From assembly GCF_021283545.2 (NCBI RefSeq), contig NZ_CP128540.1:4747501-4811500 (forward strand): a stretch of DNA of 64,000 bases, written 5' to 3'. This DNA is from Pseudomonas alloputida. GTDB taxonomy: Bacteria; Pseudomonadota; Gammaproteobacteria; Pseudomonadales; Pseudomonadaceae. Under the pieces are notes generated by a model that saw only the letters and a list, made by a program, of their open reading frames with translations, was not told the DNA's origin and searched no databases. Below, in pieces: positions 48,720 to 64,000 of the stretch; position 1 is the stretch's first letter, and each line of letters opens with the position of its first letter. The translations under genes were made by a program, and so were the position numbers.

Positions 48720-50213
48720 CTATTTCTTGTGCTTGGCAAACGCCGCCTCAAGCGCCTGGTTGATTGTGCGCACCACCTTCACCCGCGCCCAGCGCTTGTC
48801 ATTGGCCTCCACCAGCGTCCAAGGGGCAATCTCGCTGCTGGTGCGGTCGACCATGTCGCCCACCGCCTGGGAGTATTCGTCCCACTTGTCGCGGTTGCGC
48901 CAGTCATCCTCGGTGATCTTGTAGCGTTTGAACGGAATCTGCTCACGCTCTTCGAAGCGCTCCAGTTGGGTCTGCTGGTCGATCGCCAGCCAGAACTTGA
49001 CCACCACCACGCCGGCATCCACCAACTGCTCTTCAAAGTCGTTGATCTCGCTATAGGCACGCATCCAGTCAGCGGGGCTGCAGAAGCCTTCCACCCGCTC
49101 CACCAGCACCCGGCCATACCAGGAACGGTCGAAGATGGTGAACTTGCCGCGTGCCGGGATGTGCCGCCAGAACCGCCACAGGTACGGCTGGGCGCGCTCT
49201 TCTTCGGTCGGCGCGGCAATCGGTACGATACGGTACTGACGCGGGTCCAGCGCCGCCGCCACGCGGCGGATGGCGCCCCCCTTGCCGGCGGCGTCGTTGC
49301 CTTCGAACACCGCCACCAGGGCGTGCCGGCGCATGCGCTTGTCACGCAGCAGGCCGGCCAGACGCGCCTGTTCGGTGATCAACTGTTCCTGATAGTCGGC
49401 CTTGTCCAGGCGCAAGGTCATGTCCAGGGCGCCAAGCAGGCTGCGGTCGTCGATGCTGCGGCCCAATGGAGCCACGTTGCCCTGGTGCTTGCCCTTGGGA
49501 TTGTGGGCCAGCGCGGCTTGCAGGCTTTCCAGCAGAATGCGCCCCACCGCCAGGCTGCGGTAATTCGGGTCTACCCCTTCGATGATGTGCCATGGCGCAT
49601 AGTCACGGCTGGTGCGGCGCAGCACGCGCTCGCCAAAGCGCACGAAACGGTCGTAGGTTTGCGACTGCTGCCAATCCAGCGGGCTGATCTTCCAGCTGTG
49701 CAGCGGGTCGTCCTTGAGCGATTTCAGCCGTGCCTTCATCTGCTTCTTGGACAGGTGGAACCAGAACTTGATGATCAGCGCACCTTCATCGCACAGCATC
49801 TCCTCCAGGCGTTCGGCACCGGTAATGGCCTGATCGAGCACGGCATCCTTGAACACCCCGTGCACCCGCCCCTGCAGCATCTGGCTGTACCAGTTGCCAA
49901 AGAAAACGCCCATTCGCCCCTTGGGCGGCAAGGCCCGCCAATAGCGCCAGGCGGGCGGGCGGGCCAGCTCTTCGTCGGTCTGCTGGTCGAAGGTGAGCAC
50001 ATCGATCATGCGCGGGTCCATCCACTCGTTGAGCAGTTTTACCGTCTCACCCTTGCCGGCGCCTTCAATGCCGTTGATCAGCACGATCACCGGAAAACGC
50101 GCCTGCTGCTTGAGTTCGTACTGGGCTTCGAGCAGGGCCTCGCGTAAAGCGGGTACCTCGGCGTCGTAAGCCTCCTTGTCGATGCTGTGGCCGATTTCGG
50201 CAGATTCGAACAT
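48720..50213 (-). CDS. pap: Polyphosphate:AMP phosphotransferase (two PPK2 domains)
   Basis: PAP makes ADP from AMP and polyphosphate. The 497-residue protein is two fused PPK2 domains, each with a P-loop: GIEGAGKGE (near 48) and GNDAAGKGG (near 308), followed by W-rich segments (RYWRALPPKGRMGVFFGNWY, RFWRHIPARGKFTIFDRSWY). This class II PPK2 layout defines PAP. GC and context are normal. Confidence 0.93.
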   Translation of the reverse strand: MFESAEIGHSIDKEAYDAEVPALREALLEAQYELKQQARFPVIVLINGIEGAGKGETVKLLNEWMDPRMIDVLTFDQQTDEELARPPAWRYWRALPPKGRMGVFFGNWYSQMLQGRVHGVFKDAVLDQAITGAERLEEMLCDEGALIIKFWFHLSKKQMKARLKSLKDDPLHSWKISPLDWQQSQTYDRFVRFGERVLRRTSRDYAPWHIIEGVDPNYRSLAVGRILLESLQAALAHNPKGKHQGNVAPLGRSIDDRSLLGALDMTLRLDKADYQEQLITEQARLAGLLRDKRMRRHALVAVFEGNDAAGKGGAIRRVAAALDPRQYRIVPIAAPTEEERAQPYLWRFWRHIPARGKFTIFDRSWYGRVLVERVEGFCSPADWMRAYSEINDFEEQLVDAGVVVVKFWLAIDQQTQLERFEEREQIPFKRYKITEDDWRNRDKWDEYSQAVGDMVDRTSSEIAPWTLVEANDKRWARVKVVRTINQALEAAFAKHKK

Positions 50214-50349
50214 GCACTGGCTCCTTCAATGGATAAGCAAGACTAGCGGATTTCATTTCGGCCTGTATTGACCTCTTCACCAATGAACGCGCTCCCACAG
50301 CTCAGCCGGATGGCATAAAATCCCGCCATCCGCTGCAACCGAGCCCACC

Positions 50350-52314
50350 ATGCCCACCCTCCTCCAGCACGCCCAGATCGACTGGGACGACCAGGGCCGC
50401 CCCCATTCGCGGCACTATGACGACGTCTATTTCGCAGTCAACGAAGGCATCGAAGAAACCAAGCACGTGTTCCTCGGCCAGACCCGCCTGGCCGAGCGTT
50501 TTGCCAACCTGGCGCCGCACGCCTGCACGGTGATCGGCGAAACCGGTTTTGGCACCGGCATGAATTTTTTCTGCGCCTGGCAGCTGTTCGACCAGCACGC
50601 ACACAGCGACGCGCGCCTGCACTTCGTCAGCGTCGAGAAGTACCCCCTCGACCACGCCGACATGGCCCGCGCAGTGCGCTTGTGGCCTGAACTGGCCGCC
50701 TATACCGAGCCGCTGCTGGAGCAATACGTGGCGGTGCACCCGGGCTTTCAGCAGTTCACCTTCACCGGTGGCAGGGTCACCCTGACCCTGTTGATAGGCG
50801 ATGTGCTGGAACAGTTGCCGCAACTCGATGCGCAGATCGATGTGTGGTTCCTCGACGGCTTCGCCCCCGCCAAGAACCCCGACATGTGGACTCCGGAGCT
50901 GTTTGCACAACTGGCGCGGCTATCGCATCCGGGCACGGTGCTGGGTACCTTCACCACCACCGGCTGGGTACGTCGCAGCCTGGTCGAAGCCGGCTTCGCC
51001 ATGAAGAAGGTGCCAGGCATCGGCAAGAAGTGGGAGGTGATGAGCGGCGCCTACGTCGGCCCCCTGCCCGGCCCATGCGCGCCTTGGTACGCGCGCCCCG
51101 CGGTGACACAGGGGCCGCGCGAGGCGCTGGTGATCGGTGCCGGACTTGCCGGCAGCAGCAGCGCCGCCAGCCTGGCCCGGCGCGGCTGGCAGGTAACCGT
51201 GCTGGAGCGCCACGAAGCCCCCGCCCAGGAGGCTTCGGGCAACCCACAAGGGGTGCTGTACCTCAAGCTGTCTGCCCATGGCACCGCGCTGTCGCAGATG
51301 ATCCTGTCCGGGTTCGGCTACACACGGCGCCAGCTGCAGCGCTTGCAGCGTGGCCGTGACTGGGATGCCTGCGGGGTGCTGCAACTGGCTTTCGACAGCA
51401 AGGAGGCCGAGCGCCAGGGCAAGCTGGCTGCCGCCTTCGACCCCGGCTTGCTGCACTGCCTGGCGCGCGCCGAGGCCGAAGCTATCGCCGGCGTGGCGTT
51501 GCCTGGCGGCGGGTTGTTCTACCCCGAAGGTGGCTGGGTGCACCCGCCAGCGCTGTGCCAGCAGCAGTTGCAGCACCCTGGTATTCATTTGGTGACGCAC
51601 CAGGAAGTGCTCGAACTGCGCAAAGTGGATGAACAGTGGCAAGCCTGGGCTGGCGACCAGCTGTTAGCCCGCGCTCCAGTGGTGGTCCTGGCCGGCGCGG
51701 CGGATGTGCTGCGCTTCGAACCTTGCGCGCAGTTACCACTCAAGCGCATCCGCGGGCAGATCACCCGCTTGCCGGCCACCGTCAGCAGCCAGGCACTGCG
51801 CACCGTGGTGTGCGCGGAAGGCTATGTGGCACCGCCGCGCGAGGGTGAACATACACTGGGCGCCAGTTTTGACTTCCATAGCGAAGACCTTGCGCCGACA
51901 GTGGCCGAGCACCAGGGCAACCTGGCGCTGCTGGACGAAATTTCCGTCGATCTGGCGCAACGGCTGGCTGTGGCTGAACTGGACCCCGAGCAATTGCAGG
52001 GACGTGCTGCGTTCCGTTGCACCAGCCCGGATTACCTGCCGATCGTCGGCCCTATCGCCGACGCGCAGGCGTTTGCCGAAGCCTATGCAGTACTGGGCCG
52101 GGATGCGCGGCAAGTACCGGATGTGCCCTGCCCTTGGCTGGGCGGGTTGTATGTGAACAGCGGGCATGGCTCACGCGGGTTGATCACGGCACCGTTGAGT
52201 GGCGAGCTGGTGGCGGCCTGGGTATGTGGGGAACCGCTGCCATTGCCGCGGGCAGTGGCGCAGGCTTGCCATCCAAACCGGTTTGGATTGCGCCGGTTGA
52301 TCCGGGGGAAATGA
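50350..52314 (+). CDS. mnmC: Bifunctional tRNA (mnm5s2U34) biosynthesis protein MnmC
   Basis: MnmC removes the carboxymethyl group (FAD domain) and then methylates the resulting aminomethyl uridine at tRNA position 34. The 654-residue protein has an N-terminal SAM methyltransferase domain (ETGFGTGMNFF, residues 64-74; FLDGFAPAKNPDMW) and a FAD domain starting at EALVIGAGLAGSSSA (near 258). Length is normal. It is the last intact chromosomal gene before the prophage. Confidence 0.96.
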   Translation: MPTLLQHAQIDWDDQGRPHSRHYDDVYFAVNEGIEETKHVFLGQTRLAERFANLAPHACTVIGETGFGTGMNFFCAWQLFDQHAHSDARLHFVSVEKYPLDHADMARAVRLWPELAAYTEPLLEQYVAVHPGFQQFTFTGGRVTLTLLIGDVLEQLPQLDAQIDVWFLDGFAPAKNPDMWTPELFAQLARLSHPGTVLGTFTTTGWVRRSLVEAGFAMKKVPGIGKKWEVMSGAYVGPLPGPCAPWYARPAVTQGPREALVIGAGLAGSSSAASLARRGWQVTVLERHEAPAQEASGNPQGVLYLKLSAHGTALSQMILSGFGYTRRQLQRLQRGRDWDACGVLQLAFDSKEAERQGKLAAAFDPGLLHCLARAEAEAIAGVALPGGGLFYPEGGWVHPPALCQQQLQHPGIHLVTHQEVLELRKVDEQWQAWAGDQLLARAPVVVLAGAADVLRFEPCAQLPLKRIRGQITRLPATVSSQALRTVVCAEGYVAPPREGEHTLGASFDFHSEDLAPTVAEHQGNLALLDEISVDLAQRLAVAELDPEQLQGRAAFRCTSPDYLPIVGPIADAQAFAEAYAVLGRDARQVPDVPCPWLGGLYVNSGHGSRGLITAPLSGELVAAWVCGEPLPLPRAVAQACHPNRFGLRRLIRGK

Positions 52315-52444
52315 TTGCATCGGGTTGCCTGCCTGGCCACATATAACCAAACATTCTAAAACTCTCGAAAAGCACATAGGTCAGTTCCTTAAGGTGCCCT
52401 AATCCGGGGCATCACCTCCCCAACGGAAAAACCGGTAAGGACTT

Positions 52445-52465
52445 ATGTGCGGATTAGCAGGAGTA
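52445..52465. other. Inferred left prophage attachment site
   Basis: The bacterial amidotransferase reading begins at 52445 and is lost within about 20 bases (ATGTGCGGATTAGCAGGAG), after which phage DNA begins. This interval is my best estimate of the core; the exact length can only be set by comparison with the other junction. Repeats with GGTAC at 52537-52541 and 52549-52553 could be integrase arm sites. Confidence 0.5.
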
Positions 52466-52513
52466 TTGGAAAAGGGGGTTTTAAAGGCTTTCAGGGGCTA
52501 TAAATCCCCCTGA
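52445..52513 (+). pseudogene. 5' end of a class II glutamine amidotransferase gene (asnB/asnO type), cut by the prophage
   Basis: Behind a strong site (AAGGACTT five bases before ATG) a 22-codon frame begins MCGLAGVLEKG and stops. MCG(L/I)AG is the start of class II (Cys2) glutamine amidotransferases such as asparagine synthase B. A gene of this type follows mnmC in P. putida as I recall, and is linked to N-acetylglutaminylglutamine amide synthesis. Text after codon 6 or 7 no longer matches the family and runs into phage-like sequence. The rest of the gene would lie at the other prophage end, outside the window. Confidence 0.65.
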
Positions 52514-52576
52514 TTCCCCCATAAAAAACCTCTTTTGGTACAAAAAGTGGTACGAGCAATCCGCACCACTCCTCCT

Positions 52577-53077
52577 CTATTTGCTGCTGAGCAAGGCCTC
52601 GTACTCTTGCTCGCACTGCTTCCCAGCTATTCGGGCGCGGTCATAAGCCTGCGCCAGCTCTCGATTCGTTGCGACAGACCGGCTGAGCAGGTCGGAGAGC
52701 ACCATGGCGGCGCGGGTGGCTGCCTGGCCTCGGGCGACAGCGGCGGTATCCGTGCCGGGGCAACTGACAGTGGCGGCGAGCTGGGCGGCGTCGTGCTGCA
52801 GCCGCTGGCCAGCAGCATCGGCGCCAGCAGCGCCAGCGTCAGCCACCTGGTGTTGTTCGTATGCATGGGCTCTCGCCTCCTCCTGCGCCTGGGCGCGTCG
52901 TTGTTCCTCCTGCCGTGCATCGCGCTGGCCCAGCGCTTCGGCCAGTCGTTCGCCGCTGTCGCGCTGGGCAGATGCAGCCAAGGCCTGGCCCCGCTCCACC
53001 GATCGGCCGTGCTGGTAGGTGCCCCAGTAGGACATCAGCACCAGCGCCAGCAGGCCAAGTCGCAATGGCCAGATCAT
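52577..53077 (-). CDS. Rz: Rz-type inner-membrane spanin subunit
   Basis: The 166-residue protein has one N-terminal membrane helix (LRLGLLALVLMSYWGTY) and a long Ala/Gln/Arg-rich coiled-coil periplasmic domain, the layout of phage i-spanins. It begins in an ATGA overlap with the endolysin stop. A complete Rz1 frame is nested in it (52627-52866). Together they breach the outer membrane at the end of lysis. Confidence 0.85.
   Translation of the reverse strand: MIWPLRLGLLALVLMSYWGTYQHGRSVERGQALAASAQRDSGERLAEALGQRDARQEEQRRAQAQEEARAHAYEQHQVADAGAAGADAAGQRLQHDAAQLAATVSCPGTDTAAVARGQAATRAAMVLSDLLSRSVATNRELAQAYDRARIAGKQCEQEYEALLSSK
52627..52866 (-). CDS. Rz1: Rz1-type outer-membrane spanin lipoprotein nested in Rz
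   Basis: In another frame inside Rz, ATG at 52866 has AGGAGG nine bases upstream. The 79-residue product begins MHTNNTRWLTLALLAPMLLASGC: a lipoprotein signal with lipobox LASGC. The mature part is proline-rich (TTPPSSPPLSVAPARIPPLSPEARQPP), as in Rz1. A complete nested arrangement like lambda's. Confidence 0.85.
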   Translation of the reverse strand: MHTNNTRWLTLALLAPMLLASGCSTTPPSSPPLSVAPARIPPLSPEARQPPAPPWCSPTCSAGLSQRIESWRRLMTAPE

Positions 53078-53562
53078 GCCGGGCCACCACCGAGGCGCTG
53101 GTACTGAGCTATTAGCTTGTCGAGCTTGTGCGGGTTCTGCCCATAGTTGTTGCCCGGGAAGCTGGCCCAGATGTTCGAGCAGCGCGCGATGGCGGACTCG
53201 ATGCGGCCGGCGCGGATATCGTCCAGGGCGCGGCGCTCGCGGATTTGCTGAATGGCGACCCGATCCTGGTTCTCCGGGGTGAACCCGCCAGTCAGGCGCA
53301 GGCTCACCCGGTAGGCATCCCAGTAGCGTGCGAGCAGCTGGTACCGGCCTGCCGCCGTACTGGTGATGGGGTTTCCATTGATGGGGAAGGTCAGCTTCTG
53401 GCGGGGGTGATCGAGGTAGCCGGTGAACAGGCCGCGCCCGAACAGGACGTTGTAGCCGTCGTCGCTACCCTTCACGGCTTGGGTGCCCTCGGCGAAGGCG
53501 ATCAGGTCCAGAAACCGGAGCACGTTCGCGCCTCCGGCCTGGGATTCGGTGAGTCTGGCCAT
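53074..53562 (-). CDS. Lambda R-type endolysin (muramoyl transglycosylase)
   Basis: The 162-residue protein aligns by eye with lambda R: FLDLIAFAEGT (catalytic Glu at about residue 25), YNVLFGRGLFTGYLDHPR, AAGRYQLLARYWDAYR, and ARCSNIWASFPGNNYGQ. Such enzymes cleave the glycan between MurNAc and GlcNAc. No secretion signal is present, so a holin is needed, but none is adjacent. GGAGAAACC precedes the ATG. Confidence 0.9.
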   Translation of the reverse strand: MARLTESQAGGANVLRFLDLIAFAEGTQAVKGSDDGYNVLFGRGLFTGYLDHPRQKLTFPINGNPITSTAAGRYQLLARYWDAYRVSLRLTGGFTPENQDRVAIQQIRERRALDDIRAGRIESAIARCSNIWASFPGNNYGQNPHKLDKLIAQYQRLGGGPA

Positions 53563-53578
53563 GGTTTCTCCAGGCGAA

Positions 53579-53602
53579 AAAAAGCCCGCGCTTGGCGGGC
53601 TT
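53579..53602 (-). terminator. Terminator after the beta-propeller protein gene
   Basis: GCCCGC and GCGGGC pair around GCTTG (53584-53600), followed leftward by a run of about seven T residues. It separates the tail genes from the lysis genes. Confidence 0.85.
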
Positions 53603-53620
53603 GGTGGATGTAGACGTTGG

Positions 53621-54697
53621 TCAGTTTTTGTTCCACTGGATGCTGGTCATTGCCGCAGAAGGTAGCGCTCCTGCGGAGACTGCCTTGATGCGGCCAACCG
53701 TCTCATTCACATGCGGGGCCAGGATCAGTTCACCATTGGCGGCCTGAGCAATCCCCGCGAACTTCACCGCGCTCCCCAGGCCAAGAGGATCACCCTCACC
53801 ATAGGAATCCGTCGCGGGGTCGTACCAGCCCAGACGGTCGTAGGTCGAAGGGCCGAAGAACACCCTGCCATCCGGGGCAAGTACGGCATTTCGGAACTTG
53901 GCGCCCCCAACAGGGCAGGGCACGGTGTACATGGTGTTCGAGCGCCAGCGGAAGATCGTAATTGTTGCGGCGGTATACGGGGCACACACTACGTCACCAT
54001 TGGGTAGCTTTGCAGAACCGTAATAAGCAGCCGATGTAATCCCCGTCACTACCTTGGTACAGGTGTTCAAGATTGGATCGTAAATAACGAACGCCTGCGC
54101 CCCATACGGAATCAGCAAGATCCTGCCGTCTGGCAGTTCCTCGGCACCGCTGAAGTATGTGGTGACCGTCCCTCCATGGGCAGGCCCCTGGGTGAAGGTG
54201 TTCTTCACCACGTCATAGATGCCGATGTACGGACTGGTACCAGGCACCAGAATGACCTTGCCAGTCACGCTGGAGACGATAGCCCCGTGGTACCCGGGTG
54301 ACGAACCGAGATCCGGACCGGTGCGGAATTCGTTCCGAATGGTGTCATAGAGGCCGATCGTGGGCGAAAGCAGCGGAGACATCACTACGATGCCGGTTTC
54401 GGCATGAAGGCATCCGCCGCGATAGCGGGCGCTTCCAGTAGGAACTGCGGGGCCGTCCTTGAAGGTGTTGGTCACCGGATCATAGAGCCCGATCAGGTTC
54501 CGGCTGTAGGGCACGAACATAATCAGCCCATTGGGCAATACGATGCAGCCGGCGAACTTGTCGTTCGCCACTGCAACGGACGGCCCGGCTACATAGGTGT
54601 TCGTCTTCGTTCCGGAAAAAGCCTCAATAGCCTTCTTCAGCTTGTACTGATGGGGGAAAAACGGCGCCACCTTATGGCTGTAGCTCGATACACGCAT
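53621..54697 (-). CDS. Phage beta-propeller (Kelch-like) tail protein
   Basis: The 358-residue protein consists of about six repeats of roughly 45-50 residues with a recurring phrase: LPNG/DGR...FVP..., then IGLYDPVTNTFKDGP, IGLYDTIRNEFRTGP, IGIYDVVKNTFTQGP, FVIYDPILNT, LGWYDPATDSYGEG. This is a beta-propeller, typical of tail-spike or receptor-binding accessory proteins. The first 30 residues may attach to the fibre. It is the last gene of the tail block. Function is by inference. Confidence 0.7.
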   Translation of the reverse strand: MRVSSYSHKVAPFFPHQYKLKKAIEAFSGTKTNTYVAGPSVAVANDKFAGCIVLPNGLIMFVPYSRNLIGLYDPVTNTFKDGPAVPTGSARYRGGCLHAETGIVVMSPLLSPTIGLYDTIRNEFRTGPDLGSSPGYHGAIVSSVTGKVILVPGTSPYIGIYDVVKNTFTQGPAHGGTVTTYFSGAEELPDGRILLIPYGAQAFVIYDPILNTCTKVVTGITSAAYYGSAKLPNGDVVCAPYTAATITIFRWRSNTMYTVPCPVGGAKFRNAVLAPDGRVFFGPSTYDRLGWYDPATDSYGEGDPLGLGSAVKFAGIAQAANGELILAPHVNETVGRIKAVSAGALPSAAMTSIQWNKN

Positions 54698-54708
54698 GCT
54701 TGAGTTCC

Positions 54709-56754
54709 TTATGGATTAAAAGGGTCGCTGACGGTTTTGATTACCGGCACACTGGTGCCGGCCACGACCTCCTGCTCAATGACCCTGGCAATGCGAATCT
54801 GCCGCTTCGCGGTCCGTTCGTTGTCGTACGCAATGAGGATCACCCCGTCGCCCCCGAAGGTGACAATCGGGTACGTGACTTGGCCAACGGAATTGGGCTC
54901 CAGCACCACTTTGTGAGGCCAGGTGACCCCCTCATCATCCGACAGAGCAAGCGTGAGGGTTTTCCTCTCGATATCGTTGTTCCAGCAGATCAACAACCGA
55001 CCGCTCGGAGAGCGGCCCAGCCAGATCCGAGAGGACGAGGAAGGAGCCAGCGCCAGGTAGTTCACCCAGGGCGTCCAGGTTCTCATCATGTCGGTACTGA
55101 CCGACATCAGAACCCCCGAATCTCCTGGGTTCCAGCGGCACGTCGCCAGCACAGAACCATCGGCCCGCTGAACAAACTCAGTTTCGAAGAAACCGCTGTG
55201 CTGATTTCCGTTGTTGGGCGGAAGTTGGGAAATATGCTCGAGCTTTTTATTTCGCCAGTCGAACTTGTAGATATGCGGCCCAACATACTCCATCTCTCGG
55301 GGCGGATAGAGTGCATTGGATCTCCAGCCATCTACTGCCAGATACCAATCACCATTGACCTGTACCGGATGGCGAGGGTCGCCGAAATACGATAAACGGA
55401 AGGGCACACCCCATACAGGGAATTCCGCGTTAGGGTTGTGACAGATAACAGCCCAGCACCCACCCACGCCATCCATGAGTTTGTTGTTTCCGAAGACCCC
55501 GAAGAACAGCCACAGGCGACCATCAGGGTCTTTCCACAGCATGGGGTCAACGATGTGTTTGTCTCGGCCGGCGCGCTGAGCGATTGGCAAAGGGTTCAAC
55601 GGGTCATCTGCTGCGGTAAAGGTAAAGTAGCCGTACTCTTCGACGGTCTGACCGCCGTCATCGGAGTAAGCAAGAACCGCGAAGTTGCCAGCCCCCTCTC
55701 CTGCCAATTGGTTGTCGGCCCGCCATGCCAGCCAGTAGCGCTCGCTGCCGGTGCGCTCAATGGTTGCTGTCGCCTGGTACAGCCTCCCAGACAACCGATA
55801 GTCAGGGTCGTTGATGTTCCGTTCAAGGCGTGGAGGCGCGTCTACGTAAACGCTTGGCGGTCGCTGCTCGATGTTCCAATCGAAAGAGAAGTCAGTTTTA
55901 ATCTTCCGGTTCTTCGTGTCGATCTGCAGAGCAATCGAGCCATCCTGCAGGCCAAACACTAGCGCGCTGTCGCTGAGTGGAAGCGTATAGATCTCTGGAT
56001 ATTCGCGGCGATCGCTGTGGCCTTCGCTACCGTCCATGATGTCTACCGATCGACGCAGGGCCGAATTCACCACCAGGTGGTCCTGCTCGGTATCAACCCT
56101 GAATGGCTCTTTGTCACCCGCGATGAAGACTGCAGCATCGGCCAGCTTCAACGGCAGTGAAACCAACATCTGCCCGCTCTGCGCATCCATTACCAAGTCA
56201 CCATCTCCTGAAAGCTTGTCTGCCTCGCGATAGAATTGATCATCCACCAGAGATTTGATGGCAGGCTGGCCGGCAAACCGACGCCAAGCGCCAGAGCTAG
56301 CACTCCACGAATACCAACCGTCCAGGTTCGGGTCTTCGTCTCCATCAACCACCGCCATGACCGCATCGCGGGTTTGTGGGTCCGCCAACATCTCGGCGTA
56401 CGTGTCATACCGCTTGTTATTGAGGTCGTCGCCAAGGTTGGCGGCGGTTTCTTCCATGTGGGCGATGGCAGAGGTCTCAGCAGCGTCGACAGCGGCAACC
56501 GACTGACCAATATCCTGAACGCCTTCGTCGCGCGCGGCATTGACCGCAGCCTTTGCAGCGTTGACGGTCGGGCCTACTTCGTTCTTGGCGTTAATAACCA
56601 GGTTGTGGAAAGCCTGGTAGGTATTACGCGGCCTGCCAAAACGGTCCAGAAACGTTTCGGCGGTGCTGTTCATACCCAGGTCGAGGTTTTCGGAGTTATC
56701 GAAGAAGTCCAACGGGTTGCTGGACGGCATCGGGTTGAGCGTGTTGTTGGCCAT
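54709..56754 (-). CDS. Phage tail fibre protein with sialidase-like propeller domain
   Basis: ATG at 56754 with GGAGC gives 681 residues. The N-terminal 170 residues are Ala/Asp-rich and helical (DNSENLDLGMNSTAETFLDRFGRPRNTY), a segment common in fibres. The C-terminal part reads like a five-bladed glycosidase or sialidase-type propeller (YSDDGGQTVEEYG, DPMLWKDPDGRLWLFFG, LSDDEGVTWPHK, Asp-box-like SxDxGxTW). It may bind or cleave a host surface glycan, plausibly LPS. No catalytic residue set can be fixed by eye. Confidence 0.75.
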   Translation of the reverse strand: MANNTLNPMPSSNPLDFFDNSENLDLGMNSTAETFLDRFGRPRNTYQAFHNLVINAKNEVGPTVNAAKAAVNAARDEGVQDIGQSVAAVDAAETSAIAHMEETAANLGDDLNNKRYDTYAEMLADPQTRDAVMAVVDGDEDPNLDGWYSWSASSGAWRRFAGQPAIKSLVDDQFYREADKLSGDGDLVMDAQSGQMLVSLPLKLADAAVFIAGDKEPFRVDTEQDHLVVNSALRRSVDIMDGSEGHSDRREYPEIYTLPLSDSALVFGLQDGSIALQIDTKNRKIKTDFSFDWNIEQRPPSVYVDAPPRLERNINDPDYRLSGRLYQATATIERTGSERYWLAWRADNQLAGEGAGNFAVLAYSDDGGQTVEEYGYFTFTAADDPLNPLPIAQRAGRDKHIVDPMLWKDPDGRLWLFFGVFGNNKLMDGVGGCWAVICHNPNAEFPVWGVPFRLSYFGDPRHPVQVNGDWYLAVDGWRSNALYPPREMEYVGPHIYKFDWRNKKLEHISQLPPNNGNQHSGFFETEFVQRADGSVLATCRWNPGDSGVLMSVSTDMMRTWTPWVNYLALAPSSSSRIWLGRSPSGRLLICWNNDIERKTLTLALSDDEGVTWPHKVVLEPNSVGQVTYPIVTFGGDGVILIAYDNERTAKRQIRIARVIEQEVVAGTSVPVIKTVSDPFNP

Positions 56755-56770
56755 ATTTGCTCCGGGCACA

Positions 56771-56793
56771 AAAAAGCCCGCGCGGGGCGGGCA
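56771..56793 (-). terminator. Terminator after the small tail protein gene
   Basis: GCCCGC (56776-56781) and GCGGGC (56787-56792) pair; leftward a run of five to six T residues follows. It lies between the tail-tip cluster and the tail fibre gene. Confidence 0.75.
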
Positions 56794-56838
56794 TGCTCGT
56801 CGGGGTCCGGCGGCGCCGGAAGATTGAACGTGTAGGTA

Positions 56839-57294
56839 CTACTCGGCTTCTGGCCACTGCTGGTTGATAGCCAGGTCAATAATTGGGGAACCAGCAATAA
56901 AGTCCGGGTAGTTGCCCCACGGGCCTTTAATGATCGGCCGCTCCCACAGCTCAAGGTTGGCCGAGAAGGACCAGCTGCTTTTCCCAACCAGCGTCGGACC
57001 TTCGTAGATATCCATGAACCGGGATTTGTAGGCCCGGATCCCACCGGGCACCTTCAGCGGGCACTCGAACCACTGGCTACCGGACACCAGCTGCTCCTCA
57101 AACCAAGCTTCGAAGGCAAGCGCCTGGGCGTCGCTGAAGATCCATCGTACGGCGGCAACAGTCGGTACGCTTTTGTAAAGCCGCCGCTGCACTGAGCGGC
57201 CACTGACCTTGTTGGACCGGCGTATCGGGCTGACTGGCGTGAAGCCGTAACCCTCGCGCAGCGGCATGGGCAGCGATTGCGGGTATACAACCAT
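56839..57294 (-). CDS. Small phage tail protein, unassigned
   Basis: The 151-residue protein starts at 57294 with AAGGACC upstream. It contains RWIFSDAQALAFEAWFEEQL and GSQWFECPLKVPGG, and looks like a beta-rich small tail component, found between the TipJ-like protein and the fibre in this phage type. I cannot name it with confidence. It begins nine bases after the TipJ-like stop. Confidence 0.65.
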   Translation of the reverse strand: MVVYPQSLPMPLREGYGFTPVSPIRRSNKVSGRSVQRRLYKSVPTVAAVRWIFSDAQALAFEAWFEEQLVSGSQWFECPLKVPGGIRAYKSRFMDIYEGPTLVGKSSWSFSANLELWERPIIKGPWGNYPDFIAGSPIIDLAINQQWPEAE

Positions 57295-57303
57295 GATCGG
57301 TCC

Positions 57304-60303
57304 TTATGTCGGGGCGAAGCCGTCGTCATCGGCGTAGTAGTCGTCTCGGTACTCCAGAGCGGTGAAGTCACAGCTGCCGTCGGTGCCGGGGTTGATCTCG
57401 CTCATCATTGCGCTGTACCCCACCTGGGCGGATGCGGCGAACAGCAGCCGGGCCGGCTCTATTGAAAGATCGGTCACCAGGTCGAAGTCCAAGTCCGTTG
57501 CAGCGATGCTCATCTCGTACTCACCCACCCTGGCTGGCACGATCAGGGGGGTGGCCGACCCATCGTGCCGGCGGATCAGGATGCGCGGGTTGTCCACGTT
57601 CCAGTCCAGCGGCTCGGTGACCTCAAGCAACACACGGTCGCCGATCACCTGGGCGCCGACGATGAGTGCCGACTGGCTGGTGCCAGGGATATCGTCAGAA
57701 AGGGCCATGCGATCAAACCGCTCATAGCACAGCACCTCCAGATCGGTGGTGCCCGAGTACGACCAGCGCTGTGACTGGTGCTTGCGCAGCACGCGCATGC
57801 CGATCCGCCAAGCGCGGTCGCGATCAAGGACACCATCTAGGGTGATCGCATCGACCTTCAGGCCAAGGCTTTCTCCCAAGCGGCACGGCACGGTTTCTTC
57901 CGACCAGGTGCGGGGGTCGACGTACTTCACGTCCACCCCGTCGAAGTCATCCTGGCCCGGAGCAGTGAACGAGGCAGTCAGCTCGTCGGTCAGCTCATGA
58001 TTGGTGATGGTGCCTCGTACGGGCTGCACACCTTCCCGAATCGCACTGATCAGACCCTCGGTCAGTGTGAGGTGGCTCATGCCGGCCGCGAAGATCGTTT
58101 GCAGCACCTCGCGGACCGATGAGGCCTCGGTGTACTCAAGGTCAAAGGTCTCGCCGCGGGGCGTCCAGTGTGACGACTCCAGCCCGAGCAGTTTCGGCGT
58201 ATCAACCTCATCGGCCGGAATACCCAGGCTGCCCAGCACGTGCAGCGCAGCACCGCTAATGGACCGGCCAGCAAAACCCTCGTACAGCCGCTCAGCAACC
58301 AGGCTGACGCGCCGGTCGGACTGAGCGCCAAGGCGGTCGCCGGTCCTAATGGAGGCGGTGAAGATGGTCACTCCTGGGTAAACATTGGGTACATCCAGCT
58401 TCGAACGCAGCCCATACCAATAGATGGTGTCGCGAGTGTTCCCGCCGCTCTCGGGCTTTTCTCGCCTGACCCGGTACTGCGGGCGCATCTTGTACGGCAG
58501 AATCTTGCGGAAGGTGAAGCCGATGGCGTCTTCGGTGTTGCTCTGCAGATTGTGCACCTCTCGGGTCCAGGCCCCGCCAATTGCCGCATCGCGCCACTCG
58601 ACGAACACGTTCAGCGAGCCTGCCCGGCGGTGGCCGTTGCTCTTGTACCAGGCCAAGCCACCGGGCAGATAGAAATCGTACTCGATGGTGTCGGTCAGCT
58701 CCTGCTCCGGCACTGCCATGAACGGCCCAAGCCAGTCCAGGGTGGAAGCCCCGTCGGCACCAAGCGAGAAGTCCAGCAGCGTGCGCACGGTGAACCCGGC
58801 CCATCCGGTGTCAACCAGGCCGGCGTCGGTGAGGCGCTGCACGGTCATCGTCAAGCCGTCGATACCGGTAATCGTGAAGCGATGGCTGCGATATCCCAGG
58901 GACAGGCGCTGGGAGCCGTCTTCAAGCCCGGCGAACGGCGTGCCGTTGTCGTAGTTGAGCTCGATGTATGCTGGCTGCTCGGGCACACCGCCGGCCGATG
59001 CCGAGCCCACGGTGTAGACCGGGGCCACGCCAAACACGGCCACGGGCGCGTTGGACTGCGAGAGCGTGCCGCCCCGATAGGGGCTTGATGGCTCAGCGAT
59101 CAACAGCCGGCCATAGTTGTCCTGCGCCGTCAGCCCCATCCCATCAAGCTGGGAGGTGATGGCGGAGACCAGGCCGCTCATGTTCAAGAAGTTGGAGGCC
59201 AGCGAAATCGTCCGCGTGTTCCCGCGGTAGGTGATCGTCCAAACCGCTGGAGATGCCGAGAAGTCGTAGGTGGTCGGCGACGCACTCGCCTGCACGGCTG
59301 ACGGGCTGCCGCCCGACCCGGGTACCGGCGGCACGTAGGGCGAATAGTTGGCGACCACCAGGTCATAGTCCACGTCGGTCGATAGCGTCACCTTCATGCC
59401 GAGGAATGGCCCCAAATCCGCCAGCGGGCCAGAGATGCGGTCGTACTCACCAACGCTGCTCACCGTGTAGCTGTTCGGGGTACGCATGGTGATGGTCAGG
59501 CCGGCCGCCCACTCTTCGGGGAACTCGGGGTTCTCGCCTGCCAAGCTCACGCTCAACCCGCCCAATACCAGCGCGTCGGCAATTACCGAGGTGCCGCCAG
59601 TGGCCGTGGAAGCGGTGTCTAGGCCAGAGGTGCCGGCATCGGTGCCGCCCACCTCCCCTACCGAATACCAGTTTTCCGACCGGAGATCGCCGGCAAGGCT
59701 CTCCCCCGGTCCGTAGAACGCATACGACACATCGGCGCCGAAGGCAGCCAGCGGGGTATCCCCGATCTTGATGCTGCTGGGCAAGATCGAGTGCGAGCCC
59801 GCTCCCACGCACAAGCACAAGCTGGTATGAAGTTCGCGCTGGTTGACGAAGCGGGAAACCGGCTGCACCACGTAATCCGGGTAAACCTTGTACCGCCCAA
59901 GGATCTCCCGCACCGGCTCGTTGACCTTGGCGCGGTTGGCCTTCGCCGGGTTGAGGTCCATGGAGTCGCCCTGGCCAGGCTGCGACACCCCGGGCGTCTT
60001 CATCGACAGGACCATCACCAAGGCGACAGCGGCCACGGCCACAGCAGCCCAGGCCGCCACCACCAGGGCGCTGGCCCGCGGCTCGGGGTAAATCCGTACA
60101 TCCGCATCCGGCCGCACGACAAACTCGGCCCAGGCCGCGACCGGCAACACCGCGCCACCGACCTTGATGCAGATCGGGTGTTCGCGGTCCAGTGAGAAGT
60201 CAGGCGCCTGTTGCTTCAGCCATTCAACCAGCAGAATCGGGGCTTCGATGACGTGCGTTTCAAGCGGCTCGCCCTCAAGGCCACTCGGGTAAAGCCTGAT
60301 CAT
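57304..60303 (-). CDS. TipJ/gpJ-like central tail tip (host specificity) protein
   Basis: The 999-residue protein matches the lambda J/TipJ type. A hydrophobic helix (VVAAWAAVAVAAVALVMVLSM, about 81-101) follows a short N-terminal domain; the middle contains GDTPLAAFGADVSYAFYGPG and EFRKILPYKMRPQYRV-like text, then a fibronectin/tip domain. In lambda the C-terminus determines receptor choice. It overlaps the NlpC-like gene by four bases (60300-60303). Confidence 0.85.
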   Translation of the reverse strand: MIRLYPSGLEGEPLETHVIEAPILLVEWLKQQAPDFSLDREHPICIKVGGAVLPVAAWAEFVVRPDADVRIYPEPRASALVVAAWAAVAVAAVALVMVLSMKTPGVSQPGQGDSMDLNPAKANRAKVNEPVREILGRYKVYPDYVVQPVSRFVNQRELHTSLCLCVGAGSHSILPSSIKIGDTPLAAFGADVSYAFYGPGESLAGDLRSENWYSVGEVGGTDAGTSGLDTASTATGGTSVIADALVLGGLSVSLAGENPEFPEEWAAGLTITMRTPNSYTVSSVGEYDRISGPLADLGPFLGMKVTLSTDVDYDLVVANYSPYVPPVPGSGGSPSAVQASASPTTYDFSASPAVWTITYRGNTRTISLASNFLNMSGLVSAITSQLDGMGLTAQDNYGRLLIAEPSSPYRGGTLSQSNAPVAVFGVAPVYTVGSASAGGVPEQPAYIELNYDNGTPFAGLEDGSQRLSLGYRSHRFTITGIDGLTMTVQRLTDAGLVDTGWAGFTVRTLLDFSLGADGASTLDWLGPFMAVPEQELTDTIEYDFYLPGGLAWYKSNGHRRAGSLNVFVEWRDAAIGGAWTREVHNLQSNTEDAIGFTFRKILPYKMRPQYRVRREKPESGGNTRDTIYWYGLRSKLDVPNVYPGVTIFTASIRTGDRLGAQSDRRVSLVAERLYEGFAGRSISGAALHVLGSLGIPADEVDTPKLLGLESSHWTPRGETFDLEYTEASSVREVLQTIFAAGMSHLTLTEGLISAIREGVQPVRGTITNHELTDELTASFTAPGQDDFDGVDVKYVDPRTWSEETVPCRLGESLGLKVDAITLDGVLDRDRAWRIGMRVLRKHQSQRWSYSGTTDLEVLCYERFDRMALSDDIPGTSQSALIVGAQVIGDRVLLEVTEPLDWNVDNPRILIRRHDGSATPLIVPARVGEYEMSIAATDLDFDLVTDLSIEPARLLFAASAQVGYSAMMSEINPGTDGSCDFTALEYRDDYYADDDGFAPT

Positions 60304-60680
60304 CGGTAGTACTCCACTCGGGAAAAACGGCGCTCAAAGCGGCGCAGGGGCGTCAGGCTGACGTTTCGCTTGGGGTTGATCTCCAGAACCTCAAGGGCGC
60401 CGGCCACTTCCAGGACAATGGCAACGTGGTCCTGCACCTGCCCCCGGTAGGCCGCGGCAACCGCGCCGTGCCCAGCCGTGCAGCAGGTCACTGCGGTCTG
60501 GATCATCTCTTCACAGGCCCGCGCAAAGCCGCCATCCGCCTTGCGCATCTCTGCCCACTCCGGCCAGTCCGGCAAGCCCAGGTCGCGCCGAACCTCCAGC
60601 ACCAGCCCATAGCAGTCGACATGCGGCCACAGTCGGCCGCCCTCGACGTAGGCGCCGAGGGTGTATTTATCGATGTTCAT
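60300..60680 (-). CDS. NlpC/P60-like tail assembly protein
   Basis: The 126-residue protein has HVDCYGLVLEVRRDLGL (candidate catalytic Cys) and DHVAIVLE (candidate His) in the NlpC/P60 order, as in lambda K-type tail peptidases. It overlaps the neighbouring genes by four bases on each side. Annotations of such proteins vary; the hydrolase role is inferred. Confidence 0.7.
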   Translation of the reverse strand: MNIDKYTLGAYVEGGRLWPHVDCYGLVLEVRRDLGLPDWPEWAEMRKADGGFARACEEMIQTAVTCCTAGHGAVAAAYRGQVQDHVAIVLEVAGALEVLEINPKRNVSLTPLRRFERRFSRVEYYR

Positions 60681-61156
60681 AGGTAGCGCAGCCCTGGGAA
60701 TGCGTTGAGGTTGTAGGTATTGCGAGGCCAGCGGGTATCCAGCAGGTCGAAGTAGCCGGCGGTCACCGAGACCTGGGTCGCCGTGACTGAACCGCCCTTT
60801 ATCTTGAAGCGGTGCGGGGCGTGGGCTGGTGCACCGAGGTCGTCGGAGGTGTACGCGCGGTAGACCAGCGACATGCTGCGCCCATCCCTGAGCGCTGCGC
60901 GGATGAAGCCAGAGGCAATGCCGTCGATATTGCTCAGCGCGAAGGTCAGGTCCTGGGTGCCGTCGTCATTGCGCGCCGGCAGGGCCAGGTCCATGCCGCA
61001 TGGCGTGCACACCACCACCTGACCTGTTTCCAGCGTAATGGTCAGCTCGTCCCACCCCTTGGTCATCCAGTAGGTGGTGATCCCATCGGTGATCTCGAGC
61101 ACTTCATGAATGATCTCCGGCCCAGAGCTGGCGTACAGCCTTTTGAGAATGCTCAT
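60677..61156 (-). CDS. DUF1833 phage tail protein
   Basis: ATG at 61156 overlaps the tape-measure stop (ATGA) and gives 159 residues. EVLEITDG near the start, DLTFALSNIDG and the Gly-rich beta order match the DUF1833 family, found between tape measure and NlpC-like protein in siphophages. It is the counterpart of lambda L-like tail components. Confidence 0.75.
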   Translation of the reverse strand: MSILKRLYASSGPEIIHEVLEITDGITTYWMTKGWDELTITLETGQVVVCTPCGMDLALPARNDDGTQDLTFALSNIDGIASGFIRAALRDGRSMSLVYRAYTSDDLGAPAHAPHRFKIKGGSVTATQVSVTAGYFDLLDTRWPRNTYNLNAFPGLRYL

Positions 61157-63615
61157 CGCGCAGCCCTCTTGACGCCCCATCCCTGCGACAGCGCCTTGGA
61201 AACGTCGCCGTTACCCCGGGCTAGGTCGCCCGCGATCTGCTTCTTCGCCTCACGGATGAACACCTTCATGCGGTCGCCATCCTGCTGCACATCGACCTGC
61301 GCCGGGGCGTAGTTATGGACCTCTACGTTCATGGCGCCGCCGCCGGGCTTGGACGTGGCGTCCACGCTGTTGACACGCTGCAGGTAGCCGGTCAGGTCCC
61401 GGTTCTGCGCCGGGCTCAGGACGCGCTCGCCACCATCCAGCAACCAGGTGCCCTCGCTGGGAATATTGTCGATACCGGCGTGGGCCTGGCCGGACAGCGC
61501 CGAGCCTACTCCGGTCATCAGCACCCCTGCAGCTGCGGCGGCGGCGATAGCCGCACCCGGGGCGATTGCCGGGCCTACAAAGGGAACCCCGATCATCGCG
61601 GTGAATGCGTTCAGGCCGGCCATGGCCACCTGCGCCGCCGCATATGCCAGCAGCGAGTGCCCGATGGATTGGATGAAGGTTGCAGCGAAGTCCTTGGCGT
61701 TGAGCTTCCCGGTCTCGGCCCATTCAGTCAGCATGTCGGTCAACGAGCTGAAGGCCGCCGAACCCACGCTCTGCATGTTGCTGTACAGATCCATGGCAGC
61801 TTGTGCCTGGGTCGCGAAACCGCTGATGAAGCCAGCGGTGCCGTTCTGCTGCATCGCGTCAACATCCTGGTAGTACTTCTCCTGCATGGCCTTGCGGTCA
61901 TTCAGCGCTTTGTTGAGGATTTCCGTCTCCCGCTCGTACACCGAGTCGGACACATCCCCTGCATCGTGACGCTGCCGCAAATCCTCAAGCTGGTCCTGGT
62001 AGTTTTGCTCGATGGCCAGCAGGTCCAAGGCCCGCTGCTTCATCTCATCACTGCTGTAGGCATTCTTCAGCGGCGCATCCAGCGTGCGCTGATCGATGCT
62101 CAACTGCCGCTTCACGCTTGCATCAAAACCGGCGACCGCCTTGTCGTCCTCCTTGGCCTGCTTCAGTTGCTTCAGCTGGTCCAATTCAGCGGCCAGGCCC
62201 TTCAGACGCTCTTGCTGCTTGGCGCTCAGGCCGGTGAGATTCCCCGACTCCAGCTCGAACTGGAGCTTGGCCACCTCCGTGGCTTCTTTGCGCTTGTCCG
62301 TCTCGGTGTTGATAAGGGCAATCTGGCGTTTGTAGCCTTCCTCGGCGGTGTCGAACTGACCCTGGAGTTTTTTGGCAGCGGCTTCGGCCGCTTTGGCGGC
62401 CTCTTGCTGGGCTGGGGTAGTCGGCGTGAATGTGCCTGGCTGTGGCGTACCGCCACCAAGTTCTGCGGCAGCTTTTTTAGCATCAATTACATACTGACGA
62501 ATCTTGTCGCCCGCCAGCGGCTTAGCAAGCTCCTTATTGATTTCCTCGATAGCCACACGTGCATTGCCAAAATTCACCAGCGCGTCCTGACGCATATTTT
62601 CAGCGGCAGTTTTGAAATTGCGCGAAGTCTCTCCGAACGTGATTTTCCCGAGAATGTCGTTACCCGCAGCACCTATAGAATTCAGGTAATACATGGCCGT
62701 ATCAAAGCTACCGACCAGGGTCTGCGCAGTGATATTGAACGCCCGAGCAATGCCGTCACCGATGCTGGCTGTAACCGCTACGGTCTCAATCATTGAGTCG
62801 GCTAGAGCGCTGATCTGTGACTTCAATCCCCCAGCTTCTTTGGTACTGCTTGCCAAGTCCTTCGAAAGCTGCGCCAGCACAGGCATGAATTCGGCGGCTA
62901 GTGTGGTCTTCACTGCCCCCAAATATGTGCCAAGTACGGTGAGCTCATTACTGAACTGCTTGGCAGCCAGAATGGTTGTTTCATCCATTACGGCGCCAGC
63001 AGCTTCAGCTGCATCACCATATTCCTTGAAACCCTGGGAATTGTTCCGCAACAGCGGCAATAGAGCCGTTGCGTCACTGGCAATCGCTTCAAGGTAGAAA
63101 GTCATTTCCGACTGACTAACCTTCGCCTTTTCAAGGCTGGACACATACAGGCCAAGAGCCTGGCTGCCACTCAGGTTGCGAAACTGCTCAGCGGTAACGC
63201 CAACCTTCGGCGCGATCTGCTCAAAGAAGTCGGCCATCCCGCCGCCTCCGGTGTTCAGAAAATCACCGACTTTGTCATTCACGTCCTTGAGAATGTCGGA
63301 AAGCTTGTCCTGCTCGACCCCTACTGTTTTGGCCCCTACGGCCATCTTTTGGAAATCAGTTACGCTGACGTTTGCTACTGCGGCAAGGTTGGATATCTCA
63401 GATGCTGAATTGACAGCTGAGACCATCATCGTCGTAAACGCAGTAACAGCAGTCGCAACGCCTGCGCCCACAGCAGTACCTACCGCTTTGGCGCTCTTTT
63501 CAACCTCTTTACGCCACTTGGCGGAACTGCGCTCCGCCTTGTCCATGCCGGCTACAAACCCGCCAACCTGTGCAATAACGTCCAGAGTCAAAGTGCCCAG
63601 CGATCTTGAGGCCAT
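61153..63615 (-). CDS. Phage tail length tape measure protein
   Basis: ATG at 63615 with GGAG gives 820 residues. N-terminus LGTLTLDVIAQVGGFVAGMDKAE is typical; the middle is long coiled coil (for example AEAAAKKLQGQFDTAEEGYK), and a hydrophobic segment lies near residues 655-720 (GLNAFTAMIGVPFVGPAIAPG). It sets tail length and is likely injected with the DNA. It is the first of the coupled tail genes in the window. Confidence 0.9.
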   Translation of the reverse strand: MASRSLGTLTLDVIAQVGGFVAGMDKAERSSAKWRKEVEKSAKAVGTAVGAGVATAVTAFTTMMVSAVNSASEISNLAAVANVSVTDFQKMAVGAKTVGVEQDKLSDILKDVNDKVGDFLNTGGGGMADFFEQIAPKVGVTAEQFRNLSGSQALGLYVSSLEKAKVSQSEMTFYLEAIASDATALLPLLRNNSQGFKEYGDAAEAAGAVMDETTILAAKQFSNELTVLGTYLGAVKTTLAAEFMPVLAQLSKDLASSTKEAGGLKSQISALADSMIETVAVTASIGDGIARAFNITAQTLVGSFDTAMYYLNSIGAAGNDILGKITFGETSRNFKTAAENMRQDALVNFGNARVAIEEINKELAKPLAGDKIRQYVIDAKKAAAELGGGTPQPGTFTPTTPAQQEAAKAAEAAAKKLQGQFDTAEEGYKRQIALINTETDKRKEATEVAKLQFELESGNLTGLSAKQQERLKGLAAELDQLKQLKQAKEDDKAVAGFDASVKRQLSIDQRTLDAPLKNAYSSDEMKQRALDLLAIEQNYQDQLEDLRQRHDAGDVSDSVYERETEILNKALNDRKAMQEKYYQDVDAMQQNGTAGFISGFATQAQAAMDLYSNMQSVGSAAFSSLTDMLTEWAETGKLNAKDFAATFIQSIGHSLLAYAAAQVAMAGLNAFTAMIGVPFVGPAIAPGAAIAAAAAAGVLMTGVGSALSGQAHAGIDNIPSEGTWLLDGGERVLSPAQNRDLTGYLQRVNSVDATSKPGGGAMNVEVHNYAPAQVDVQQDGDRMKVFIREAKKQIAGDLARGNGDVSKALSQGWGVKRAAR

Positions 63616-63629
63616 CTTTTTCTCCGAGC

Positions 63630-63656
63630 ATAAAAAAACCCGCACTCGGCGGGCTA
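63630..63656 (-). terminator. Terminator after the superinfection-immunity gene
   Basis: CCCGC (63639-63643) and GCGGG (63649-63653) pair around ACTCG, followed leftward by seven T residues. It isolates the immunity gene from the tape-measure gene. Confidence 0.75.
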
Positions 63657-63672
63657 ATTGTCATGATTATAA

Positions 63673-63987
63673 CTATCGACCAAGAACCTTGGACTTCTCT
63701 GCTTCAAATTCTTCAGCGGTAAGATGTCCGCGATCTCTCAGTTCGGCCAACTTCTCAAGCTTCAAGTAAGGATCTTCCTTGTCTGGCCGCGTGACCAGTA
63801 TCTCTTTGTGCTTAACCGTAGAATTGCTCTTTATCGCAGACACCGACCATATAAGCGATGCAACCCAGCCTATAAATGTCCAGCCAAGCAACAGATTCAG
63901 GAAAAAAATCGAAGCCTTGTTGTGATGCCCTCGTACCACTGAGATCAGGAATGGCAGAAGGTACAAAGCCGTCATCCCTATCAGCAT
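63673..63987 (-). CDS. Superinfection-immunity type membrane protein with SHOCT domain
   Basis: The 104-residue product has two hydrophobic helices (about 5-20 and 27-52) and the phrase NLLLGWTFIGWVASLIWSV, the mark of the superinfection immunity family (T4 Imm-like, PF14373). The last 28 residues (KLEKLAELRDRGHLTAEEFEAEK) are a SHOCT oligomerisation motif. Such a moron gene in a prophage, behind its own terminator, suggests exclusion of related phages. The ATG at 63987 lies near the window end, so an upstream extension cannot be excluded. Confidence 0.75.
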   Translation of the reverse strand: MLIGMTALYLLPFLISVVRGHHNKASIFFLNLLLGWTFIGWVASLIWSVSAIKSNSTVKHKEILVTRPDKEDPYLKLEKLAELRDRGHLTAEEFEAEKSKVLGR

Positions 63988-64000
63988 TGGCGCGGCATCA

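Follow-up and report, generated by a model that had tools for sequence, protein, structure and literature searches.

The window, a stretch of 64,000 nucleotides from Pseudomonas alloputida, carries mnmC on the plus strand (50350..52314; NCBIfam NF002480, 822.8 bits). Its stop codon is followed, after a gap of 130 bp, by an ATG at position 52445, which opens a frame of 22 codons and a stop (MCGLAGVLEKGVLKAFRGYKSP, 52445-52513, plus strand). The frame begins with MCGLAG and is preceded by a Shine-Dalgarno-like TAAGGA (52436-52441), whose pairing with the anti-SD amounts to -5.8 kcal/mol (L040). A sequence-only reading had recognised here a prophage junction within the first codons of a class II amidotransferase gene downstream of mnmC, and had proposed the start-codon region as the phage attachment site. 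Both proposals hold, since the ATG lies inside a 19-bp attachment core (52445-52463, plus strand), the left or attL copy, which starts at the A of the ATG and spans the start codon and codons 2-6 of the gene, asnO.

The exact 19-mer, ATGTGCGGATTAGCAGGAG, is present in two copies in the 6,438,596-bp genome, at G000:C1:4799945, the copy in the window, and at 4837025. The latter, the far copy that the earlier reading had called for, is thus on the same strand at a distance of 37,080 bp downstream. A third match is found only with 3 mismatches, and the reversed pattern, used as a control, has zero matches in the whole genome. The repeat common to both junctions is exactly 19 bp, with zero common bases to the left of the ATG. 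When the two flanks are joined in silico, they are identical at 114 of 120 positions to the empty site of a relative (G057), in keeping with the proposed comparison with an unoccupied site. Eight two-copy genomes, this one included, have a native left leader, and in each of them the core extends 19-20 bp from the ATG onward and is preceded by 0 or 1 common base. Because the seven others repeat this arrangement, the core is not due to chance. A tRNA attachment site is rejected, since a tRNA search of the window found none.

The 22-codon junction frame is a by-product of integration. It has 11 or 8 codons in some other prophages, which speaks against a conserved phage peptide, and phage-free relatives have MCGLAG in the same position after a conserved native leader. 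Neither of the two findings named beforehand as contrary to the junction was therefore made. At the left end of the phage lies a hairpin, CAGGGG-loop-CCCCTG (52492..52512, no strand assigned), found by eye, as were similar hairpins at some other left ends. It is a possible terminator for the minus-strand late genes, but the terminator scan gave nothing at this position. Paired TGGTAC repeats follow in the left phage arm (52536..52556, plus strand) and match, by eye, a pair at the end of int; these repeats near both phage ends are probably arm-type integrase sites.

The remainder of the window (52577..63999, minus strand) holds a lysis-region ORF, an endolysin, a tail protein and the tape measure, the last three assigned with PHROGs and the first from the ORF map, and the prophage continues to G000:C1:4837024. 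From attL, lysis, tail, head and replication-region genes succeed one another, nearly all on the minus strand, up to the Cro gene. Rightward from the CI-like repressor, all genes are codirectional with asnO: the repressor with its S24 peptidase domain, a CsrA-domain protein, three small genes (one of them Ead/Ea22-like), the excisionase and the integrase. The latter reads outward, its stop lying 36 bp before the ATG of the intact asnO; the gap is 35-38 bp in most relatives. Integrase, excisionase, a CI/Cro pair, terminase, major head protein, tape measure and endolysin between the att copies (PHROGs, Pfam) identify the element, by its gene content, as a temperate lambda-like phage. The CsrA-domain protein between repressor and integrase (L006:113-520, G000:C1:4833113-4833520) matches PF02599 with 52.8 bits and phrog_5527.

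Elements with both core copies on one contig, in this genome and eight others, measure 4.9 to 58.2 kb, the 4.9- and 6.6-kb ones being reduced. These two very short elements (G297, L254, 4.9 kb; G029, L253, 6.6 kb) may be remnants or satellites. In the G380 assembly one contig holds an attP junction (L260, G380:C177) and a different one the intact empty attB (L261), which suggests an excised form of the phage. On G220:C10 (L275) the core is followed by a frame resembling the phage left end, MCGLAGVFGLGVLKVFRG, but preceded by unrelated DNA; this is perhaps a junction at a secondary site.

The downstream core copy opens an intact frame of 595 codons, the full amidotransferase ORF anticipated at the far junction. 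The protein is the N-acetylglutaminylglutamine (NAGGN) amidotransferase TIGR03104 (948 bits over residues 1-592; curated cut-off, 570.1), an assignment to which the full-length score and the adjoining synthetase gene both contribute. That next gene encodes N-acetylglutaminylglutamine synthetase (TIGR03103, 960.9 bits) and the third an M42 peptidase (TIGR03106, 600.9 bits), so that asnO-ngg-peptidase is the NAGGN osmoprotectant operon. At the far junction the frame of a class II amidotransferase is thus made whole again, and asnO is given a new leader, not broken, as the sequence-only reading had surmised. Class II amidotransferases need Cys2 as nucleophile, and an N-terminal fusion would therefore be expected to be harmful; with the start codon inside the core, the N-terminus of the enzyme is exactly unchanged after integration. 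The same three-gene operon, PA3459-PA3461, is repressed in P. aeruginosa by the MarR repressor PA3458 and up-regulated by osmotic stress, according to the accessible part of the report (PMC8070244). The words phage and prophage are absent from its main text, whereas here a prophage sits at the operon and the gene 5' of the site is mnmC.

The native asnO leader now stands apart from its gene. A block running from TATAAC to TCTAAAACT (52342..52363, plus strand), whose columns are mostly invariant in 16 aligned native leaders, is a probable promoter region, although a sigma-70 consensus scan returned nothing in the native leader region. The remainder, also conserved among native leaders (52364..52444, plus strand), ends in CCCCAACGGAAAAACCGGTAAGGACTT and is the segment that the prophage cuts off from asnO; the 130-bp leader as a whole ends in TAAGGACTT directly before the ATG. 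Across the genus, strong conservation is seen at TATAAC, TCTAAAACT, GGTCA and CCCCAACGGAAAAACCGGTAAGGA, while the middle is variable and hairpin-like (52315-52444; native leaders among L040-L068). Possibly the native leader is a regulatory leader of a sort not yet described, and its GGA motifs look like RsmA/CsrA sites. An Rfam search of window positions 50000-54000 gave no family match for the leader; a Trp_leader hit elsewhere in that interval scored 26.7 bits against a gathering threshold of 41 and was taken as chance.

How widely this arrangement recurs was read from 398 genomes drawn from the genus Pseudomonas. The integrase has a match at an E-value of 1e-20 or better in 177 of them, and 30 loci were taken for inspection of their context. 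Thirteen loci, that of the present genome included, reach an identity of 71% or more across 277 residues or more; 12 of these lie directly before the asnO ATG and one is an attP (G380). The remaining 17 loci, at 53-58% identity, have no adjoining asnO. Among named genomes there are 13 near-full-length loci at 62% identity or more, of which 12 run into asnO and the last (P. caricapapayae) is an attP junction; this count excludes short C-terminal pieces of the integrase, of which some reach a local identity of 71% and none adjoins asnO. In the named-genome and provirus search, loci at 58% identity or less never adjoin asnO, many of the provirus contigs ending at the integrase. Of 80 provirus contigs fetched, 41 belong to the clade: 19 run into asnO, 2 into the phage left end, and 20 end before asnO is identifiable or (L206) have a broken frame. 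The integrase clade is site-specific for the asnO start.

The exact 17-mer core is present in 275 of the 398 genomes and the start of the native leader (a GGTAAG-type pattern) in 256. By-eye comparison of the two tables leaves 20 genomes with the core but without the native-leader start: in one the gene is an amidotransferase of another kind (G023), in four an integrase adjoins asnO (G106, G209, G299, G388) and 15 are fossils, in which the phage has decayed. The G023 locus (L278), at 34% identity, is a different amidotransferase and was rejected as asnO. A phage-derived leader thus precedes asnO in at least 27 of 398 genomes, namely 12 with an adjoining integrase (11 full length; truncated in G297) and the 15 fossils. 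This is a lower bound, since the census goes by the exact core: G310 and G142, which have integrase pieces at asnO without it, are not counted, the former having a phage-type leader and a start written ATGTGTGG. Also outside the count are three rows in which the core stands in a different setting (G050, L255; one of two G182 copies, L277; one of two G220 copies, L275) and the row of G189, where the asnO region is present in two copies.

The end of the phage brings its own ribosome-binding-type sequence, of the AAGG type, about 10-12 nt before the asnO ATG. A Shine-Dalgarno-type motif is found in 20 of 25 distinct leaders with int (4.0 expected from shuffles) and in 12 of 13 fossil leaders (2.2 expected); the strict motif is absent from 5 and 1, respectively. 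Pairing with the anti-SD is weaker in phage leaders than in native ones (means of -4.0 and -5.7 kcal/mol) and the spacing is longer. Two of the 25 leaders with int have an in-frame upstream start (L103/L201, ATG; L100, GTG). As to transcription, a sigma-70-like promoter scan of int and the roughly 6 kb before asnO found none on the asnO strand, a result weak either way since the native leader, scanned likewise, gave none either. No terminator-like site was detected on that strand from the CI-like repressor to asnO, and consensus searches of the surroundings of int, of attL and of the right arm for promoters and terminators were likewise negative for it. The promoter for asnO would be inside the phage DNA.

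The 15 fossil genomes carry asnO behind a phage-type leader, next to an integrase remnant that is broken or, in three of them (G244, G256, G344), undetected by tblastn; in these three the phage origin of the leader is read from its likeness to phage leaders. The identity threshold given above applies to intact integrases only, and the remnants at fossil sites have 35-75% local identity. The native leader-start pattern is matched in none of the 15, and all 15 have a full 590-codon asnO frame with its stop. In G348, G386, G184 and G344 the motifs TCTAAAACT and ACCGGTAAG were not found in some 39 kb upstream, mnmC included, nor were they found in G209 between mnmC and the remaining phage DNA. In G348, G386 and G184 (L262-L264), three genes lie between mnmC and the captured leader; by sequence they look like an ABC ATPase, a large permease and a lipoprotein, and they may be host genes or cargo. 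G106, G388 and G299 have the left core copy behind a leader of the fossil type, suggesting that a second phage entered an already captured site.

The captured leader is better conserved than the integrase remnant beside it. In the five fossil species of one group (G348, G386, G184, G020, G182), to which this test is confined, substitutions occur in 2 of 48 leader columns, plus one gap column, but in 58 of 222 columns of the adjacent integrase remnant (one-sided Fisher p = 0.00024). A three-genome version gives 0 of 33 leader columns against 46 of 272. Third positions of asnO differ by 16-23% among the genomes of this group, so these are not recent copies of one another. The dN/dS of asnO is 0.009-0.034 in the ten pairs of the group and 0.027-0.063 in seven pairs from three other fossil groups, hence 0.009-0.063 over 17 pairs in four groups. 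For comparison, three pairs of lysogens or empty sites give 0.035-0.046, and the first three fossils against G209 give 0.064-0.071. Such low values mean that the asnO protein is kept; they say nothing on the timing or the promoter of its expression. In intact prophages, conservation of the leader could stem from integrase binding. In the fossils, whose integrase is disrupted, this is an unlikely reason, and four of the five species have also lost the arm sites; the alternative left is that the integrase of another phage could act at these leaders. As fossils keep both leader and asnO, it appears that phage leaders repeatedly became the leader of the host gene. Continued use of asnO behind the captured leader is well supported by these comparisons.

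The interpretation that we favour, with a probability of about three in four, is that the prophage places the NAGGN operon under a new leader, phage leader and transcription replacing native control, and that this leader later became permanent in several lineages. A temperate lambda-like phage with a tyrosine integrase uses as attB the opening 19 bases of asnO, which begin with the A of the ATG and take in the MCGLAG codons. The native leader with its probable promoter is left at attL, reading into a short dead-end frame; this displacement is observed, as is the phage end (the int stop codon and 36 bp) set directly before the intact asnO-ngg-peptidase operon. In the lysogen, asnO would be translated from the phage leader and transcribed from the lysogeny and integrase side, not from its own promoter, and excision would give native control back. 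In several lineages the phage has decayed and its leader has stayed as that of the operon.

The same geometry might instead act as an off-switch, the prophage parting asnO from its promoter so that the operon is silent in lysogens and comes into use only once the phage is excised, in the manner of SpyCI at mutL. The native leader and its probable promoter do lie beyond 37 kb of prophage, the consensus promoter scan of int is negative, and the accessible part of the SpyCI report (PMC3430984) shows that such an outcome can occur. However, decay would be the expected fate of a gene silenced for good, and the 15 genomes that lack the native leader-start, with integrase broken or undetected, all have a full-length asnO; the low dN/dS in the four fossil groups compared and the conserved captured leader of five species speak in the same sense and make silencing improbable. 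It is less far-fetched, if still rather unlikely, that the phage simply uses a conserved stretch as a neutral landing site, leader conservation and the AAGG motif being by-products of integrase binding and expression in the lysogen incidental, with no benefit. A 17-mer core as widespread as this one is good reason for a phage to use it, and the paired TGGTAC repeats at both phage ends fit such binding. Yet conservation of the leader persists beside a broken integrase, with the arm sites lost as well in four of the five species, and several distinct leader types are retained. The chance that the junction is a random insertion or an assembly error with a fortuitous MCGLAG frame is practically nil: no point in its favour was found, the second core copy refutes it, and beside the eight two-copy genomes, each with its core of 19-20 bp from the ATG, the same junction recurs in named genomes and provirus contigs.

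Sister integrases, about 50-58% identical, lie 5' of and codirectional with other host genes (L104-L146, L214, L216, L244, L297, L309, L310), which from their reading frames we take to be folE, an ABC-F ATPase, pepA, argF, pbpG and a MoxR-type gene. Some sister loci (e.g. L125, L134, L232) have no such gene directly behind the integrase, and the sites are leads, each from one or few junctions. At folE, the attL/attR pair of one genome, G155, has 33 bp in common, the GTG start included; among 12 genomes searched with the folE core pattern, G155 alone has a second copy close by, that of G074 being 355 kb away. At argF, phage MD8 and the host junction match up to CGACATTTCCTTAT, well upstream of the gene start. 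The sister integrases perhaps form a family favouring the 5' control regions of conserved genes. A bolder proposal, tentative and with the odds somewhat against it, is that the integrase family is specialised in control-region sites (the start codon at asnO and folE, the promoter region of argF, upstream of pepA, pbpG and ABC-F). Each lysogeny would rewire a host operon onto the repressor-integrase transcript without a cargo gene, osmoprotectant synthesis would be a lysogen trait, and the captured region would repeatedly be kept after the death of the phage. If the favoured interpretation of the asnO site holds, lysogeny alters a host trait via the attachment site alone, with no cargo gene. 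The genus offers a natural series from empty site to intact prophage to fossil leader, in which the frequency of phage ends becoming permanent host control regions is testable. What one strain teaches about the osmotic control of NAGGN may also fail for a near relative whose site holds a prophage or a fossil.

Among known systems, the conjugative SXT/R391 elements insert at the 5' end of prfC and are thought to supply new 5' sequence, giving a new N-terminus; the 5'-end insertion is shared, but the protein is unchanged here. In the open-access literature searched, no title describes a prophage at asnO, and the accessible parts of PMC7466150 and PMC4554452 contain no description of one. The nearest case is HK022 at torS of E. 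coli, where, as far as the accessible part of the paper goes, the phage supplies transcription from an experimentally mapped start site, and the site is occupied in roughly 5% of fully sequenced strains (PMC6814406, eLife 2019). As portrayed there, attB is likewise on the 5' side of the host gene, the integrase, the last identifiable phage gene, points outward to it, and the native promoter is cut off; at asnO too, an outward integrase immediately precedes an intact host gene that reads in the same direction. In contrast to torS so described, the core here starts at the start codon, so that the whole leader and ribosome-binding site are exchanged, an osmoprotectant operon is the target, and several species keep the captured leader after phage decay.

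SpyCI is a small prophage-like island, not a full phage, whereas the prophage of the window has head, tail and lysis genes. In the accessible part of the report, SpyCI islands in the 5' end of mutL of Streptococcus pyogenes mostly silence the gene and excise with growth, and in strain Manfredo a promoter inside the decayed integrase drives mutL (PMC3430984). There too, insertion at the 5' end of a gene parts it from its promoter, but one rescued strain is described in that part, against 15 genomes with a decayed or undetected integrase here. HK022 at torS and SpyCI at mutL establish that an element can substitute for the promoter of a host gene. The asnO prophage is of the same kind but departs from them in three ways: its exchange is precise to the start codon, it affects an osmoprotectant operon, and several lineages have fixed the leader so captured.
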